Source: Oceanobacillus kimchii X50
GTDB taxonomy: Bacteria; Bacillota; Bacilli; Bacillales; Amphibacillaceae
Length of the DNA stretch: 64,000 bases
Assembly (NCBI RefSeq): GCF_000340475.1
Contig: NZ_CM001792.1
Location: 1,262,659-1,326,658 of the forward strand
Direction of reading: 5' to 3'
Shown here: positions 1,663 to 55,622 of the stretch, one piece after another
Layout: each line of letters opens with the position of its first letter
How positions within the stretch are numbered: position 1 is the stretch's first letter
Program-made: the position numbers and the translations under genes
The notes under the pieces: model-generated
Databases searched by the model: none
Told to the model about the DNA's origin: nothing
What the model saw: only the letters and a program-made list of their open reading frames with translations

Positions 1663-3468
1663 TTAGCTATGTAGCTCATAGTAATACCCCTTTTGTTTCA
1701 TTAGACTATTGTGATTTCCTTTTTCAATGATTTTCCCATTCTTCATCATCATGATTATATCTGCTTCGCGGATGGTATTTAAACGATGCGCCACAACAAA
1801 ACTTGTTCTACCTTCCATAAGTCTTTTTAGAGCTTCTTGAATTTTAATCTCTGTGATTGTATCAATATTACTGGTTGCCTCATCCAAGATCAGAATCTTT
1901 GGCTCCGCCAGTAATGCTCTAGCTATAGTAAGTAATTGTTTCTGCCCTTGGCTTATGCCACTTCCATCCTGATCAAGAATCGTATCAAATCCTTTTGGTA
2001 AATGAGAAATAAATTCGTAAGCATTGGCGTTTTTTGCTGCTTTTTCAACTTCGTGGTCACTAGCAGTTAACTTTCCATATCGAATATTTTCTCTAATGGT
2101 TCCATGGAATAAGAATGCATCCTGTAATACAAAAGCCATATGACTTCGAAGGCTGGAACGCTTAATTTTCTTAATGTCCAAACCATCTAAAGTAATCAAT
2201 CCACTATCATAATTATAGAAGCGGGAGATAAGGTTTATAATTGTTGTCTTTCCTGCGCCAGTGTGTCCCACTAGAGCGATTGTTTCTCCTGGACTAGCTT
2301 CAAATGAAATGTTGTCTAATGTTTTAGTGTTTTCGTATCCGAATGAAACATTGCTAAACACGACATGACCATTGGTGTCATTTATAGTAATGGCATCTTT
2401 TTCATCTAATTCTTCTTGTGTTTCATCCATAACGTTAAATACACGCTCTGCACCAGCAATGGCTGATAACAACATATTAAATTGATTTGATAATTCATTA
2501 AGCGGACGAGTAAATTGTCTAGCATATTCTGTGAATATTACGATAGTACCAACGGTTACTAAGGAAGTATCTGAAACAATTACCAATATACCGCCTACTA
2601 AAGCAATTAAACCAAAGCTTAAGAAGTTTAACATATTCATTACTTTTGGAATAAAACCAGAAATAGTTAGAGCCCAGAAACCAGTATTTTTTAAAGCGTT
2701 ATTTCTTTTTTCGAATTGATTAGTAACGTAATTTTCTTGAGAATAGGTCTTCACCACGTGTTGTCCTGAAACAATTTCTTCTACATAACCATTTACTTCA
2801 CCAAGGTGCCTTTGTTGCAACTTATACAATGGACCTGTTCTCCTAGTTATCCAGCGCATCGCAAAATACATTACCGGAATGATTGACATTGCTACTACTG
2901 TAAGAATAGCGCTCAAATATAGCATGACAACCAATGTACCTATGAGAGTTAGTACGCTTGAAAAAATCTGAATAACGGATTGGTTTAAGGTATTGTTAAT
3001 GTTATCTATATCATTTGTTAAGCGACTCATCAATTCTCCGTGTTGGCGTTTATCAAAATAGGAAATTGGTAAGCGGTGAAATTGTTCAAACAAATTTTTT
3101 CGTAATGTATGAACTGTATTTTGAGCAATTCCAACCATCCAAAAATTTTGTAGAAACAAGGATACAGAATGAATGATATAAACGGCAATTAGAGCAAGTA
3201 ATAAATACCCGAGTCCGTTAGCTTCTTGTGTAATAATGAAGTTATCAATTGCTCTTCCTACTAAGAAAGGGCCAAGTAACGCAAATATTGAGCTAATTAG
3301 GACCATTAGTATAACGAGCGTAAGCATGCCTTTTTCTATTGCTATATATTGCCAAATTCGTTTAAGCGTCGCGCCCATATTTTTGGCTTTTTTTTGTTGA
3401 TCTGCATTTACACTCGATATATCAATTCTTTTATACTGAAAAGGTGCCTTTAAGGAACTATTTCGCAT
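1663..3468 (-). CDS. yfiC: ABC exporter half-transporter, catalytically canonical Walker B subunit (YfiC-like)
   Basis: A fused six-helix membrane domain and ATPase of 601 residues. From the chosen start, Walker A (GHTGAGKTT) is near residue 401, a modified signature (ISQGQ) near 505, Walker B with the catalytic Glu (ILILDE) near 525-530 and the switch His (VVAHR) near 551. The frame extends 27 codons further upstream, but ATG 3468 has a perfect AGGAGG six bases before it. The gene overlaps the upstream subunit gene by 11 bases, so translation is coupled. Heterodimeric exporters of this kind usually export drugs or lipids; the substrate cannot be read here. Confidence 0.85.
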   Translation of the reverse strand: MRNSSLKAPFQYKRIDISSVNADQQKKAKNMGATLKRIWQYIAIEKGMLTLVILMVLISSIFALLGPFLVGRAIDNFIITQEANGLGYLLLALIAVYIIHSVSLFLQNFWMVGIAQNTVHTLRKNLFEQFHRLPISYFDKRQHGELMSRLTNDIDNINNTLNQSVIQIFSSVLTLIGTLVVMLYLSAILTVVAMSIIPVMYFAMRWITRRTGPLYKLQQRHLGEVNGYVEEIVSGQHVVKTYSQENYVTNQFEKRNNALKNTGFWALTISGFIPKVMNMLNFLSFGLIALVGGILVIVSDTSLVTVGTIVIFTEYARQFTRPLNELSNQFNMLLSAIAGAERVFNVMDETQEELDEKDAITINDTNGHVVFSNVSFGYENTKTLDNISFEASPGETIALVGHTGAGKTTIINLISRFYNYDSGLITLDGLDIKKIKRSSLRSHMAFVLQDAFLFHGTIRENIRYGKLTASDHEVEKAAKNANAYEFISHLPKGFDTILDQDGSGISQGQKQLLTIARALLAEPKILILDEATSNIDTITEIKIQEALKRLMEGRTSFVVAHRLNTIREADIIMMMKNGKIIEKGNHNSLMKQKGYYYELHS

Positions 3469-5188
3469 GATGAGCCTCCTTTTCAAATTGTGATTCAGCA
3501 ATGGATTGGTATAGCTCTGATTTATGAAGCAACTGTGCATGAGTACCAATATCTAATACTGAACCGTAATCGAGTAATAAGATTCGATCAGACTTTTTTG
3601 CCGTCGATACTTTTTGGGTTATGATAAACACAGTACAATGATAACTCTCCAATGCTTGTAAAAATCGAGCTTCGGTTGCTAAGTCCAGAGCACTTGTACT
3701 GTCATCTAACATTAGAATTTTAGGTTTGCGAATTAAAGCTCGTGCGATCGAGATACGTTGTTTCTGACCACCCGAAAGATTTACCCCTTTTTGACCGACA
3801 CGTGTTTCATATTTTCCTTCTAATTGCATAATGGTGTCATGAATTTGAGCGTCTTTAGCAGCTTGAATTACATCATCCATCGTTGCTTCCCGTTTTCCCC
3901 AAGCGATGTTATCAAATATTGTTCCTGTAAATAATAATGGGCTCTGAGGCACATAACCAATGCTGTCACGTAAATTTGCAAAAGAATAATCATCTAATGG
4001 TAGATCATCAACATAAATGGTTCCTTTTGTCGGGTCATATAACCTCGGCATTAATTGAAATAATGACGTTTTTCCAGAACCAGTTGCTCCGATAATAGCC
4101 ATACTTTCTCCAGGATTAACGTTGAAAGAAATATCTTTTAACGAGGGTTGTTTTGCATTAGGATATGTAAATGAAACATGGTCATATGTTACTTTTCCGT
4201 ATTTGACCACTTCTTTATCATCTGATGAAGCTTGTTGTTCTTGTTCATTACGCAATGTTAACACTTCTTCGATACGATTTGCAGATGCTTTCGTTCGTGA
4301 AATCGCCATTATAATGAAAGAGAACATAGAAATTGCCATTGATACTCTTAGTGCATAATTTACCATCGTCACTACTTCACCGACATTAGCTTGACCCGCA
4401 ATAGTTTGTGCATTCCCAAACCATATAATGAAAATTAAGCTCACATTCATTACAAGTAGAAGTATAGGACCTGTGGATTCAATAATACGAAATGTTTTCT
4501 TGGTTGCATCAGCTAGCTCAGTATTCGCAATTCCAAATCTATCCTCTTCAAAGCCTCTGCGTGAAAATGCTTTAATTAATCGCATTCCAGCAAGGTTTTC
4601 CTGCATGACTCTATTTACGTTATCTACATTCCCTTGGACTTTCGTAAATAACTTACTCGTAATCTTCAAAACAAATAATAAGAAGATAACAAGCAGGGGA
4701 ACGGTTACTAAGAATATCGCTGCTAATTGTGCATTTACAATAAAAGCCATGATAACTCCACCAATTACAGTAAGTGGAGCTTTCGCCATAATACGTAATG
4801 CCATAAAAATCGTATTTTGAATTTGGCGGATGTCATTAGTGAATCTGGTTACTAAGGCAGATGTCGGATATTGATTTAAATTGGCGAAAGAGAAATCTTG
4901 AATCTTTTCAAACAGTTTTTGACGAATATCATATCCATATGCAAAACTGACATGGGAGGAAATAAAGGAATTAATGATTCCAGAAACAAGTGAAAGTAAA
5001 GCCAATCCAATCATGATACCGCCCCAAAAACCAATATTGCCTAAATCTTGGTTCTCAATGCCTTGGTTAATCATGAACCCTAAAAATAAAGGAAGCAGCA
5101 ATTCTACAGCTAACTCAACCAACATTAGTAGAAATGCTACAATAGAAGGAACTTTATAAGGTTTTATAAATGAAAAAACATTTCTCAA
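3458..5188 (-). CDS. yfiB: ABC exporter half-transporter, degenerate-site subunit (YfiB-like)
   Basis: 576 residues with six predicted N-terminal membrane helices and an ATPase domain. Walker A IGATGSGKTS is near residue 366 and the signature LSGGQ near 471. The Walker B stretch reads KILMLDDSTS, with Asp where the catalytic Glu normally sits (about 496). The switch region reads FIITQKVST, with Gln where His is expected (about 525). That combination marks the degenerate-site partner of a heterodimeric exporter such as BmrC/BmrD or LmrC/LmrD. Its partner overlaps its 3' end. It is first in the operon; the 560 bases upstream hold no gene before the tRNA. Confidence 0.87.
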   Translation of the reverse strand: MRNVFSFIKPYKVPSIVAFLLMLVELAVELLLPLFLGFMINQGIENQDLGNIGFWGGIMIGLALLSLVSGIINSFISSHVSFAYGYDIRQKLFEKIQDFSFANLNQYPTSALVTRFTNDIRQIQNTIFMALRIMAKAPLTVIGGVIMAFIVNAQLAAIFLVTVPLLVIFLLFVLKITSKLFTKVQGNVDNVNRVMQENLAGMRLIKAFSRRGFEEDRFGIANTELADATKKTFRIIESTGPILLLVMNVSLIFIIWFGNAQTIAGQANVGEVVTMVNYALRVSMAISMFSFIIMAISRTKASANRIEEVLTLRNEQEQQASSDDKEVVKYGKVTYDHVSFTYPNAKQPSLKDISFNVNPGESMAIIGATGSGKTSLFQLMPRLYDPTKGTIYVDDLPLDDYSFANLRDSIGYVPQSPLLFTGTIFDNIAWGKREATMDDVIQAAKDAQIHDTIMQLEGKYETRVGQKGVNLSGGQKQRISIARALIRKPKILMLDDSTSALDLATEARFLQALESYHCTVFIITQKVSTAKKSDRILLLDYGSVLDIGTHAQLLHKSELYQSIAESQFEKEAHHAK

Positions 5189-50616: not shown

Positions 50617-50725
50617 ACTTTTAAGGGTCCTTGCTAAATAAACGGAGTAAAAAAGTATCTTTACATTATATTCCATTATTGGTAAGCTTGGGTTGTTAGT
50701 AAATGACATTTAAATAGAATTTTTT

Positions 50726-50822
50726 TCACACTAGGGGAGCTATGGTAAATAGCTGAGATGAACATTGGATTGTTTAGACCCTTTATACTCGAACAGGATA
50801 ATGCCTGCGTGAGGAAGTGTGG
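50726..50822 (+). promoter_or_regulatory. TPP riboswitch (THI-box)
   Basis: CACACTAGGGGAGCT, AGCTGAGATGAA, GACCCTT, CGAACAGGATAATGCCTGCG and GAGGAAGTGTG match the THI-box with P1 arms CACACT/AGTGTG. It is followed by an intrinsic terminator, so thiamine pyrophosphate should stop transcription. Confidence 0.92.
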
Positions 50823-50842
50823 TCAATAGGCATAAGTATATT

Positions 50843-50876
50843 GACTACATTCTCTCATGATGAATGTGGTCTTTTT
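50843..50876 (+). terminator. Expression-platform terminator of the TPP riboswitch
   Basis: GACTACATTC and GAATGTGGTC form the stem, followed by CTTTTTG. Confidence 0.85.
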
Positions 50877-51140
50877 GTTTGTTTCAAAGAGGTTGTTCAA
50901 AGAGTCTGGTGAAAATAACACAGATCAGGGGGGAACTTCTGCTAAGATCGCCCACGTCCTGTGGACAACGCAGAAATCACCACATCCTGTGGAAGCTCGT
51001 TGGCTTGCTTTAGTTCCTCACGTATTAACTGCATACGTTCCGGTACTCAAAGCTAAGCCGCCTCGATCTTCTCGGTCCTTTTCATCCACCCTTTTAAACC
51101 CACACTTAAAGTGAAAAAGTTCGCTAAGGAGGAAAAATCT
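50877..51140. other. GC-richer non-coding segment before lipM
   Basis: About half G+C, unlike its flanks. It holds two similar blocks, CCACGTCCTGTGGAC and CCACATCCTGTGGAA, 29 bases apart, both with CCAC/GTGG dyads. An 85-codon frame is open but has no sensible composition. It looks like an inserted repeat element or old insertion between the riboswitch and lipM. Confidence 0.55.
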
Positions 51141-51962
51141 TTGCGAGAAAAATGGGCGTTCGTAGAAAACACTCCACAAGATGCAGCGATTAATATGGCA
51201 CTAGACGAAGCTTTGTTGCATTGGCATCAAAAAGGTGAAATTCCACCAACTTTGCGATTTTATCGATGGAATGAACCGACACTCTCTATAGGATATTTTC
51301 AGAAAGTAGATGGTAAAATTGATCTTGAAGGTATTAAAAAGCATCAATGTCAATTGGTAAGAAGAATGACCGGTGGAAGTGCTGTCCTGCATGATGATGA
51401 ATTGACATACAGTATTGTCATTTCAGAAAGGCATGAGAGAGTTGCATCATCTATTCGTCAAGCATATTACGATTTATCAAAAGGTATATTAAGAGCCTAT
51501 CAATTGCTGGGGATTGAAGTAGATTATGCACATGAGCCAATCTCTAAAAATCGAAGCACGATTTGTTTTGAGCAACCCGCATTTTATGAATTGCTTGCAA
51601 ATGGAAAGAAAATTTCAGGGAACGCACAAATAAGGAAAAAAGGAATACTACTTCAACATGGATCAATCCCTATATCTATGAATGTGGAGATGCTATTTGA
51701 TTTATTACAATTTCCAACAGATCAAATAAAAAAAAGAAAGAGACAAGGATTTTATGAAAGAGCGACTACTATTAATAAGGAGTTAGGAGAAAAGCAATCC
51801 TATAAAGTGGTAAGAGATGCTTTTCAACAAGGTTTTTCAGAAATTTTAAATATCGAATTAGAGCCAATAACGTTGACAGAAGAACAGTGGAAAGAAGTGT
51901 ATCAGATTGCCGAAGCTAAATATTCGAAGAGTAATATAAAAGGAGCTGTTTCACATGTCTAA
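51141..51962 (+). CDS. lipM: Octanoyltransferase LipM
   Basis: 273 residues from TTG 51141 behind AAGGAGG; the frame is open ten codons earlier. The BPL_LplA_LipB fold shows [37 protein letters not shown] and the Cys nucleophile in [19 protein letters not shown], which separates LipM from ATP-dependent lipoate ligases; the Lys follows in GKKISGNAQ. LipM moves octanoyl groups from ACP to GcvH in Firmicutes. Its 3' end overlaps lipA by 8 bases. Confidence 0.9.
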
Positions 51963-52899
51963 TCAACAAACTCATGTACGAAAGCCAGATTGGTTAAAAA
52001 CAAGAATTAATACAAACAAATCTTATCGAAACTTAAAAAAGCTGATGCGTGATAATCGGTTAAATACAGTTTGTGAAGAGGCACGCTGTCCAAACTTACA
52101 TGAATGCTGGAGCGAAAGAAAAACAGCTACATTTATGATTTTAGGAGATACGTGTACAAGGGGATGCCGATTCTGTGCAGTAAAAACAGGGCTGCCGAAT
52201 GAGCTGGATTGGGGAGAACCAGAACGTGTGGCTGATTCTGTCACCGTAATGGGTTTAAAACATGTGGTAGTAACAGCAGTCGCTCGAGATGATTTGAATG
52301 ATGGCGGTGCAGCAGTATTTGCAGAAACTGTCCGAGCTATTCGTAGAAAAAATCCAGGTTGTACTATTGAAATTTTGCCTTCTGATATGAAAGGAGATTA
52401 TGAAAGTCTCCATACATTAATGGATAGTGGACCAGATATTTTTAATCATAATATTGAGACCGTTCGAAGACTTACCAAGAGGGTGCGAGCTAGGGCTACG
52501 TATGACCGTTCATTAGAGTTACTCCGACGTGTAAAAGAAATAGCTCCAAAAACACCAACAAAATCTAGTATAATGGTTGGTCTAGGAGAAGAAAAAGAAG
52601 AGATTATTCAAGCAATGGATGATTTATTAAATCATAATGTGGATATTGTTACACTTGGCCAATATTTACAGCCAACGAAAAAACATCTAGAGGTAGTGCG
52701 TTACTATCACCCAGATGAATTTGAAGAACTGAAAAATATTGCCTTAGAAAAAGGCTTTTCCCATTGTGAAGCTGGTCCACTAGTTCGTTCCTCATACCAT
52801 GCGGATGAACAAGTATCTAACGCAGCAGCTCAACGAAGAATTAAATATATGAAAGGTGTAGAGAAGCAAGAAAACACTCAACTGGATTTTAATTTCTGA
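51955..52899 (+). CDS. lipA: Lipoyl synthase LipA
   Basis: 314 residues. [12 protein letters not shown] holds the auxiliary 4Fe-4S cysteines near residues 40-51 and CTRGCRFC the radical-SAM cluster near 66-73; the C-terminal RSSYHADE carries the extra Ser ligand. It inserts sulfur at C6 and C8 of octanoyl groups. The ATG lies inside the end of lipM with AAAGGAGC upstream, so the two enzymes of lipoate synthesis are translationally coupled. Confidence 0.96.
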
Positions 52900-53131: not shown

Positions 53132-53740
53132 CTATTTATTACGAAGCCGATATAGTTTGGAAACGCTATTCATTATCCATTTTGGAATTTTAGTAGGAAA
53201 ATAAGTTCGATGATAGTATTTTTCATATCCATTTTTTAAATCTTGCCATTGAGTGCATTGTTTTTCCTGAGAAAAACGAGCAACATCAATAATTTTAATC
53301 GTACCTTCTTTTGTGACAATCAAATTGTGTAAATGAATATCGGATGGATTTAAACCAACGTCCCTTGCATATTGTAATCCATTGTCAACTTGGTGTACAT
53401 AGTCTGATTTTAATAAAATTCCTTCCGCCAAGCATTCAAAAAAAGTTTTTCCCTCAATCAAATCCATTACCAAATAGTTGGGTCCAGACTCATAAATGGT
53501 TGGATAATAACTACTGCCTTTTAGTTTTTCATAGTTATTTTTTTCTTGAATAGCTGTTTTTTCAAAAGGTGGATAAAATATTTTAATGACTCTATGCTCT
53601 CCGTTCACTTTAAATACAACAGCACTTCTTCCCGTCCCATAAACCTGCAAATCAGGGTGATGTTTCAGTACTTTTACTTGATTATTTTTATTTGAAAATG
53701 AAACGGTAGAGACATAGAAGTTGTATTGAGATGAATTCAT
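53132..53740 (-). CDS. Protein kinase-like protein (YrzF-type)
   Basis: 202 residues. VYGTGRSAVVFKV is a glycine-loop-like start, VIKIFYP supplies the Lys, YLVMDLIEGKTF the hinge, and PSDIHLHNLIV the catalytic loop with Asp and Asn. The DFG position reads IIDVARF, so Asp is kept and Phe-Gly changed. It is a short eukaryote-like or ABC1-like kinase as in YrzF. It follows a 40-codon gene by two bases, and both lie behind a yybP-ykoY riboswitch. Confidence 0.78.
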   Translation of the reverse strand: MNSSQYNFYVSTVSFSNKNNQVKVLKHHPDLQVYGTGRSAVVFKVNGEHRVIKIFYPPFEKTAIQEKNNYEKLKGSSYYPTIYESGPNYLVMDLIEGKTFFECLAEGILLKSDYVHQVDNGLQYARDVGLNPSDIHLHNLIVTKEGTIKIIDVARFSQEKQCTQWQDLKNGYEKYYHRTYFPTKIPKWIMNSVSKLYRLRNK

Positions 53741-53742
53741 TA

Positions 53743-53865
53743 TTATTTAAACTTACCTTTCCTTTTTGCTAGTTTCTTCTTAATTAATGGTAGAGCGTGT
53801 TTCTGAGCTTGTTTCATTCCTTCTTTTACCACTTTTGATTTTAATAATTTTGTGAGTTTAGACAT
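53743..53865 (-). CDS. 40-residue basic peptide behind the Mn riboswitch
   Basis: Below usual length limits. ATG 53865 follows a perfect AAAAGGAGGT. The product starts MSKLTKLLKSKVVKEGMKQA and ends KKKLAKRKGKFK, about 40% Lys/Arg with no acidic patch except one Glu, so it is a cationic amphipathic helix. It is first after the riboswitch and two bases ahead of the kinase gene. Function unknown; possible kinase ligand, RNA-binding or membrane-active peptide. Confidence 0.65.
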   Translation of the reverse strand: MSKLTKLLKSKVVKEGMKQAQKHALPLIKKKLAKRKGKFK

Positions 53866-53901
53866 ATAATTACCTCCTTTTAAAAGTGTGGCAATAAGTC
53901 C

Positions 53902-54026
53902 ATAAAAAGAGACCTTTGCCCACTAAATTGAGCAAAGGTCTCGCAAGCAACTTAATAAAAAGTTGCCAGCAGTGCCGAGGATTCCTCCTGTAATGACGAC
54001 AGCTGCTATTATGCTACTCCCCTTTG
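53902..54026 (-). promoter_or_regulatory. yybP-ykoY (manganese) riboswitch with terminator
   Basis: On the minus strand: AAAGGGGAGTAGCATAATAG, GTCGTCATTACAGGAGG, CTCGGCACTGCTGGCAAC, then TTGCTTGCGAGACCTTTGC. GAGACCTTTGC pairs with GCAAAGGTCTC, followed by TTTTT, giving the standard terminator. The opening GGGGAGTAGC and the CGAGACCTTTGC end are hallmarks of yybP-ykoY. In this class manganese promotes readthrough. Confidence 0.85.
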
Positions 54027-54053
54027 GGATTAATTTAAATGATATTTGAATAT

Positions 54054-54082
54054 ATTATATAAGCTTGTTTTTTTATAAGCAA
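54054..54082 (-). promoter_or_regulatory. Sigma-A promoter of the Mn riboswitch operon
   Basis: Minus strand TTGCTT (54082-54077), 17 bases, perfect TATAAT (54059-54054), about 28 bases before the riboswitch. Confidence 0.75.
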
Positions 54083-54809: not shown

Positions 54810-55622
54810 TTAGTTTAATTCATCACTCGGCATCGATACATTTTTAGAATTTAATACTTTCCAAGAAATGATGGTCGTACTATCTTTGACCTCTTTTGAT
54901 TGTAAGGTTTCTAACATAGAAAGAATTATTTCTGTATCCTGCTGTGCAGATTCTGAAAACAAATTAAAAATTCTTTCCGGGTGTGCAAAGGGTGCATGAG
55001 GACATTCTATCAAGCCATCTGTACAGAGAAAGATATGGTTTTCTCCTTTTCTTAGTTCTCGAACGCCAGTGCTATAACAAGGGACTTCTTGATTAAATGT
55101 GTTCATTTGTCCAATCCATTCAAAAAACTGTCTTTGATTCAATTGAAATTGTCCTAATCGAATTAAATCAGGATGGAAGTAGTATAATAGACAGTCTCCC
55201 ACTGAAAACCACCAAATGTATTTTTCCTTTCTCAAGACGATTAAACAGGATGATTCACCCTTAATGTTTTTGCAGTCAGTTAGGAAAGTGTTGGAATTAA
55301 AAATATGAAGTAATTTTTCTTTTATTAATTGAAAACTTTGCTGAACTGGTAATTCCATAATCCTTAAAAAATCGAATCTTGCTTCCATTATATAATGGGT
55401 GATAAGTTTAGCACTATCATCACTGCTATGTGCATCCAGGAGCATGATGAATTCCCAATTTTGTTCAAGGCTCCACCATATTAAACAACCATCTTCATTT
55501 TTATTTTGACCGGTGTTAGAATTTCCTCCAAGCCGACCTAAGTTTATATGTTTATATTGAACTACGCTTGGTTCATCTATAAAAGTTTGAGCACTACCAA
55601 CCCAACTAATACAATTATTCAT
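54810..55622 (-). CDS. PP2C-type protein phosphatase
   Basis: 270 residues. NTGQNKNEDGCLI (motif 1 with Asp), MLLDAHSSDDS (motif 2, DG replaced by DA), FSVGDCLLYYF and IFLCTDGLIE supply the metal-binding Asp residues. PP2C enzymes remove phosphate from Ser/Thr with two Mn or Mg ions. Its start overlaps the HIT gene end by 8 bases. It may oppose the kinase-like protein encoded 1 kb away. Confidence 0.8.
   Translation of the reverse strand: MNNCISWVGSAQTFIDEPSVVQYKHINLGRLGGNSNTGQNKNEDGCLIWWSLEQNWEFIMLLDAHSSDDSAKLITHYIMEARFDFLRIMELPVQQSFQLIKEKLLHIFNSNTFLTDCKNIKGESSCLIVLRKEKYIWWFSVGDCLLYYFHPDLIRLGQFQLNQRQFFEWIGQMNTFNQEVPCYSTGVRELRKGENHIFLCTDGLIECPHAPFAHPERIFNLFSESAQQDTEIILSMLETLQSKEVKDSTTIISWKVLNSKNVSMPSDELN

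Follow-up and report, generated by a model that had tools for sequence, protein, structure and literature searches.

Riboswitches of the yybP-ykoY class respond to manganese and are described mainly as switches of exporter and other Mn-homeostasis genes (PMC7266159, PMC9495176). What, then, might one do in front of a gene for a 40-residue basic peptide and a gene for a kinase-like protein? This question is raised by a locus of Oceanobacillus kimchii X50 within the 64,000-nucleotide stretch analysed here (the window; positions 1262659-1326658 of the 3.83 Mb chromosome NZ_CM001792.1). An earlier note, made from the letters of this DNA, had proposed that riboswitch, terminator, peptide and kinase form one unit, and every piece could be located within 53132-54082 of the window, running along the minus strand in the order promoter, aptamer, overlapping terminator, Shine-Dalgarno sequence, 40-aa ORF and 202-aa ORF:

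54077..54082, minus strand: -35 element TTGCTT, read from the sequence; TTGC is invariant in 11 of 11 aligned leaders
54054..54059, minus strand: -10 element TATAAT after a 17-nt spacer, read from the sequence; invariant in 11 of 11 aligned leaders
53932..54028, minus strand: aptamer of the yybP-ykoY Mn2+ class (RF00080) in a form without P2, from Rfam match, covariation and local model
53994, minus strand: L3 adenosine (UCAUUAC), matched by eye to A41 of L. lactis (UCA41AUUC), which contacts Mn
53904..53942, minus strand: intrinsic terminator, with a stem of 14 pairs at 53942-53909 plus a T run
53873..53879, minus strand: Shine-Dalgarno sequence AAGGAGG of the peptide, 7 nt before its ATG at 53865
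53743..53865, minus strand: basic peptide ORF, 40 aa with 15 K/R and 1 D/E; conserved ORF, dN/dS
53132..53740, minus strand: kinase-like ORF, 202 aa; Pkinase match, catalytic residues, fold
54810..55622, minus strand: PP2C-family phosphatase (Pfam match, 65.3 bits), a neighbour outside the conserved unit

A consensus promoter scan returned 22 promoter-like sites against 17.9 expected and did not list TTGCTT-17-TATAAT, so that support for the promoter comes from its conservation. The kinase ORF begins where the peptide ORF ends (TAATAATG in the window; in 9/11 aligned leaders TAATG, a one-base overlap), so that translation of the kinase is probably coupled to that of the peptide. Elsewhere in the window (50723-52899, plus strand), lipoate genes are preceded by a TPP riboswitch scoring 78.4 bits and a Bacillaceae-1 RNA scoring 63.9 bits; these genes are a lipoate-ligase-like gene (51111-51962) and an ORF that reads as lipA by eye (51955-52899), without any longer ORF between these RNAs and the lipoate genes on the plus strand. 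It would be unusual for a thiamine switch to precede genes of lipoate metabolism.

The aptamer and its switch

The Rfam model RF00080 matches the leader at 54034-53945 with 26.3 bits (E 2.6e-5 over 631 nt, 3.8e-5 genome-wide), below the gathering threshold of 45 bits. The best match in the genome, the leader of a gene whose protein is TerC by Pfam (164.1 bits), likewise falls under this cut-off at 27.6 bits, and among the 94 of 159 family genomes that have a match it is passed in 12; the sub-cut-off score is not special to the window site. Assignment to the Mn riboswitch class, as the earlier note had it, is borne out by covariation in 61 distinct aptamers, all upstream of kinase relatives. 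These were picked partly by GGGGAGTA, TCGTCA and AGACC, so that selection accounts in part for the constancy of just these letters, and the helices are unselected; the secondary structure was hand-written from the Rfam alignment, and the alignment of the 61 was not fitted to it. Helices P1, P3 and P4 covary, with 97.8% of cells paired and changes on both sides in 13 of 27 pairs. Cells changed on both sides number 131, where shuffles give 27.7 (sd 6.1) and slid-partner controls no more than 17; the number of further pair types in the 61 aptamers is not above shuffles, 70 of 500 of which reach the observed count. A local model built from the 61 gives the window site, itself in the training set, 91 bits. 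Searched against the genome at E up to 0.1, with 150 of 1165 candidates scored, it finds two sites, the window aptamer and the TerC leader (82.7 bits), the latter from outside the training set. The leader as a whole folds at -55.2 kcal/mol (z -5.7; 0/200 shuffles as good).

Loop L1 (GGGGAGUA) and the UCA of L3, with its putative Mn-contacting adenosine, are invariant in 61/61 aptamers (letters partly selected), and L1 and the L3 core UCGUCA of the window aptamer are identical in the TerC leader. An adenosine that contacts Mn2+ is known from the L. lactis (UCA41AUUC) and X. oryzae riboswitches (PMC6754395); by eye, A53994 appears to correspond to L. lactis A41. Helix P2 and the four-way junction of the crystal structures are absent, AUAAU standing at the place of P2. 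This absence is not decisive against the Mn class, because the TerC leader and several further family leaders also lack P2 and because a three-way-junction member, which binds Ca2+ as well, is described for Streptococcus (PMC9495176); that the genome's TerC leader and others of the family share the trait also led us to reject a new aptamer type. A separate feature is an extra nucleotide in lower P3 near L3 (54002-54003, alignment columns 30-31), present in all 19 riboswitch-peptide-kinase aptamers and filled in only 1 (L235) of the other 42; it may tune affinity.

The 3' strand of P1 (CCUUUG, 53938-53933) sits inside the 5' arm of the terminator, making P1 and terminator mutually exclusive; a terminator scan gave 2 terminator-like sites against 1.3 expected. 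An overlap of the same kind in L. lactis makes a Mn-ON switch (PMC11087558). The window riboswitch shares with this terminating L. lactis form L1, L3, the adenosine matching the Mn contact and the overlap of the P1 3' strand with the terminator, but it differs in lacking P2, in the extra conserved P3 nucleotide and in having a peptide and a kinase, not an exporter, as targets. From the class and the overlap together we infer that Mn2+ is very probably the ligand and that it turns expression on. At low Mn2+ the leader RNA would fold the terminator and transcription would stop; at high Mn2+ the ion would clamp L1 to L3 and hold P1 closed, no terminator would form, and RNA polymerase would read through into the genes for the Lys-rich 40-residue peptide and the small kinase, the peptide probably working with the kinase as partner, activator or substrate.

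The peptide and the kinase-like protein

The tiny Lys-rich gene with its AAGGAGG that the earlier note had picked out is present and recurs as MSKLTKLLKSKMVKEGIKQAQKHALPVIKKELAKRKGSFKK-like sequences. Among 13 sequences (six of the 19 units were missed by the pattern, and the 78 pairs are not independent), dN/dS is 0.22 in frame, where the two other frames give 0.74 and 1.59; a one-base difference of genome G073 was kept in the set and can only raise the ratio. In the same 13 sequences, third codon positions vary in 34 of 39 cases, compared with 20 first and 15 second positions, and all 13, the window's included, carry a GGAG core upstream. By these comparisons the peptide is under protein-level selection. 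Of 159 family genomes, a peptide profile matches 10 with E no higher than 3e-20, exactly the 10 that have riboswitch and close kinase (63% identity or more), and gives 2 weak matches elsewhere. Among the 397 genomes of the order, 38 have a match at E 0.01, and a riboswitch lies upstream in 18/18 genomes with a profile E below 3e-7. The peptide HMM found nothing in 10546 shuffled ORFs versus 81 matches in real ORFs, a figure that includes training sequences and duplicate loci. The window peptide matched no Pfam family (E up to 1) and no NCBIfam family. Weaker basic-peptide relatives at L083, L084, L108, L109 and L110, where the stretch read holds neither riboswitch nor kinase, are perhaps members of a wider small-protein family.

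Ser10 of the peptide is invariant in 11 sequences and absent from the relatives in L090, L091 and L103, which weakens it as a phosphosite. An amphipathic helix is not supported, the hydrophobic moment being no better than that of shuffles (a fraction of 0.157 reach the value). A frame of 113-125 aa running through the aptamer into the peptide (L069, L071, L072) was rejected as coding because loop lengths differ and the frame is closed in L068 and L070.

The kinase-like protein is a divergent member of the protein kinase superfamily, matching Pkinase (PF00069) with 23.6 bits and E 4.1e-5 and not reaching the gathering cut-off of 31.7. Residues K53, E66, D134, N139 and D152, whose catalytic roles were assigned by eye, are identical in 116/116 relatives, as are the loop residues G37, S39 and A40 and R155 of the DVAR motif. 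The altered DFG noticed earlier was indeed seen, as DVA with its Asp invariant in 116/116; to judge by these alignments, the alteration runs through the whole family, leaves the catalytic residues in place and gives no sign of a dead kinase, and an active enzyme appears likely. Among solved structures the best sequence matches are Ser/Thr protein kinases (9ymt, E 1.7e-4; 4eqm, E 1.8e-4). A structure model built from three sequences only (pLDDT 68.5, moderate) gave, among the 50 Foldseek matches listed, a best E of 2.2e-6 and TM scores by query length of 0.40-0.53; all 50 are kinases, most of them CK2 and two Rio2. The catalytic segment reads PSDIHLHN, weak sub-cut-off matches to ABC1, Kdo kinase and RfaY were found, and the homologue at L112 matches RIO1 above the cut-off (26.2 versus 22 bits). 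With small Ser/Thr kinases such as B. subtilis YrzF, the protein has the kinase fold and the catalytic residues in common, while its length of about 200 aa, its GxGRSAxxF loop and its IIDVARF in place of DFG set it apart. PADLOC matches to anti-phage defence proteins (PD-T4-6, mad6, MkoA) were put down to general resemblance among kinases. The relatives on plasmids, 28 records with less than 60% identity throughout, are distant, and the closest named relative found, in a search that gave two loci, is that of Oceanobacillus sp. J11TS1 at 70% identity. We know of no substrate for this kinase family.

Conservation of the order and its partners

The order riboswitch-peptide-kinase, whose conservation had been put forward as a check, is kept in 19 genomes of three families: 10 family genomes, J11TS1 and eight genomes of two other families (f3 six, f35 two). 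It is seen in L005 and L007-L016, among others. A 33-nt riboswitch core occurs in 6 of 397 genomes, with none for the reversed control among the matches listed, and the five genomes that carry it besides the window's all have the order. At L015 (1480-2223, minus strand) a difference of one base within an A run, which may be a sequencing error, merges peptide and kinase into a single open frame of 247 aa.

The link between riboswitch and kinase reaches further. A same-strand upstream riboswitch is found at 47 of 100 kinase loci, in 12 families by search-table labels; the 100 are L006 plus 30, 29 and 40 loci from searches, with one kinase present twice (L026, L247), and they favour closer relatives (30 of 79 matches of one search and 70 of 120 of another, L007 being in both). 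Most of the 47 also supplied sequences to the 61-aptamer model. Since the other 53 loci lack a same-strand upstream riboswitch, even in a set weighted towards close relatives, the kinase has a life without it. On a tree of 116 kinases the riboswitch label, taken from a signature scan (60/116) and, at three further loci, assigned by eye, undergoes 10 changes under parsimony. In family f47 the link is looser, because the distance from riboswitch to kinase reaches 0.75-1.2 kb with other ORFs between. At five loci of genus g36 (L028 at 2929-3500 on the plus strand, L034, L029, L031 and L036) a riboswitch lies on the opposite strand; in L028 and L034 it runs divergently from the kinase and leads to an ORF, which in L028 matches Spo0M. 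The changed L3 (GTCGACA) of this Spo0M leader in L028 and L034 was considered as an altered-ligand variant and dropped, the adenosine still being at the sensing place.

Peptide and kinase are separable, because many riboswitch-linked kinases come without such a peptide and because 12 genomes have riboswitch, peptide and a DUF6376 gene but no kinase within the stretch covered. Among 31 peptide-profile loci seven are without riboswitch, and five of those seven also lack the kinase. In favour of the two belonging together, the kinase at L112 and L113, where a scan with the local model found no riboswitch, is followed directly by the peptide, their ORFs 3 nt apart or overlapping.

DUF6376 is a recurrent third member. 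Peptide, DUF6376 gene and kinase stand behind the riboswitch in 12 genomes (one of f3, eleven of f11), for example at L096, L103-L107 and L111. By eye its proteins have a lipobox; in several families they are encoded in one operon with the kinase, and they occur in 137 of the 397 genomes; 24 of 69 scanned loci have a same-strand upstream riboswitch. Among the control genomes B. subtilis gave a match to the domain, and the 13 others gave none. The B. subtilis lipoprotein is presumably YybP, namesake of the riboswitch, so that if this identity is right the window unit is a relative of the founding yybP operon minus the lipoprotein: related operons run riboswitch, this peptide family, DUF6376 and kinase, whereas the window genome holds no DUF6376 match at E up to 0.01.

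A different small basic protein can take the same position. In two other lineages, f47 and the f29 genus g74, an FbpB-family peptide is encoded after a Mn riboswitch and ahead of this kinase. Such loci were recognised by eye in six cases (L200, L202, L203, L216, L213, L224), and the two tested score 42.6 and 57.2 bits for PF13040 (cut-off 25); a small basic protein before the kinase may thus be the theme more than the window peptide's sequence. These loci link a family named for Fur and iron to Mn riboswitch control, and at L216 an ORF of the Spo0M family follows.

The PP2C phosphatase, which the earlier note had drawn into the circuit, is a real member of its family (65.3 bits, 55622-54810). 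As a conserved partner it was rejected: among 11 loci (the window genome, 9 family genomes and J11TS1) the window's own is the one with a PP2C protein beside the unit, with the caveat that most of these loci are short, spanning about 1.5 kb from the kinase, and a farther copy would be missed. An opposite-strand DUF4064 gene lies between the PP2C gene and the unit and is kept in one further genome (L008). Elsewhere in the family, 26 of 30 riboswitch loci viewed have a TerC-like or P-type-ATPase-like ORF downstream, by eye; among these TerC proteins the Pfam check covered the window genome's one. A Mn riboswitch also precedes a Na/Ca exchanger family protein (L044, 404-1450, minus strand) and a DUF5392 protein (L059, 1660-2109, plus strand).

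What the operon may do

We favour, with some reserve, a Mn2+-ON operon that makes a basic peptide and an active kinase acting together. Sequence comparison shows the covarying riboswitch, the kept gene order, the selection on the peptide and the intact catalytic residues; it gives good support to the regulatory side of this reading, and the signalling side is a hypothesis. A functional link of the two seems rather probable, and it is a reasonable expectation that the operon has a role in the response to excess Mn. Two known small proteins invite comparison. E. coli MntS, of about 40 residues, is regulated by MntR, takes part in Mn balance and acts at low Mn; the window peptide has a similar size and a link to Mn, but its expression would be expected at high Mn, and the likeness, drawn by description, is a loose analogy. 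FbpB (PF13040) is Fur-regulated and is a proposed small-protein effector acting on RNA. It has in common with the window peptide that it is a small basic protein of a metal regulon with, elsewhere, a place between Mn riboswitch and kinase; the window peptide itself does not match PF13040.

These comparisons lend themselves to an explanation that we consider unlikely, namely that the peptide is an independent effector sharing only its promoter with the kinase and acting on RNA or a transporter in the manner of FbpB or MntS. The FbpB-family peptides at the same place in f47 and g74, the strong basicity of the window peptide (15 K/R to 1 D/E in 40) and the riboswitch-peptide-DUF6376 loci without kinase speak for it, but Pfam gives no match for the window peptide, kinase and peptide stay paired at L112 and L113 in the absence of the riboswitch, and the two are one open frame in L015, if that is not a sequencing error. 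That FbpB itself binds RNA is unproven (PMC8464778). We are also doubtful that the kinase phosphorylates a small molecule or lipid, not proteins, and serves, with DUF6376, TerC and the peptide, in the metalation of the envelope or of exoenzymes under excess Mn. The lipobox of the DUF6376 proteins and their shared operons with the kinase would fit such a role, as would PSDIHLHN, which recalls atypical kinases, the weak ABC1, Kdo kinase and RfaY matches and the RIO1 match of the L112 homologue; TerC proteins metalate exported enzymes in B. subtilis (PMC10550928). The best solved matches are nevertheless Ser/Thr protein kinases, and the listed fold matches are kinases throughout, mostly CK2 with two Rio2.

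That the aptamer mainly senses another divalent ion such as Ca2+ strikes us as improbable. Some yybP variants have probably changed ligand (PMC7266159), the Streptococcus three-way-junction member also binds Ca2+ (PMC9495176), and the window form lacks P2 and has the conserved extra P3 nucleotide. Against this stand L1, the L3 core and the putative Mn-contacting adenosine, invariant in all 61 aptamers and identical in the TerC leader. Finally, the riboswitch might have stayed behind after the loss of an exporter with the downstream genes as bystanders, a relic that the earlier note had named as its refuting case, with the peptide frame unconserved. The class does usually precede transporters, as in the 26 of 30 loci above, but the core hardly varies, the order holds from one family to another, linkage of kinase and riboswitch extends over 12 families and the peptide is under selection (dN/dS 0.22); we rejected the relic and give it next to no credence.

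The riboswitch class is known; it is the conserved set of targets that is unusual, and in titles, abstract openings and passages of the literature on yybP-ykoY, YrzF, DUF6376 and Mn riboswitches we found no report of the riboswitch-peptide-kinase unit, although earlier surveys may list the genes. The Mn2+-ON operon favoured here would place an unclassified small-protein family in a pathway, with excess Mn2+ as its condition, and would give a role to this kinase family. We offer only tentatively the wider possibility of a phospho-signalling system that responds to Mn under the control of the founding branch of this riboswitch class and is made up of an order-wide kinase family, interchangeable riboswitch-controlled small basic proteins (the window peptide here, FbpB-type ones elsewhere) and the DUF6376 lipoprotein. 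To our knowledge, no metal riboswitch feeds a phosphorylation pathway. With the kinase as its recurring target across 12 families, a metal riboswitch would be linked to signalling and, if this is true, Mn sensed by a riboswitch would be turned into phosphorylation, so that in these bacteria Mn may govern a signalling module in addition to export pumps.
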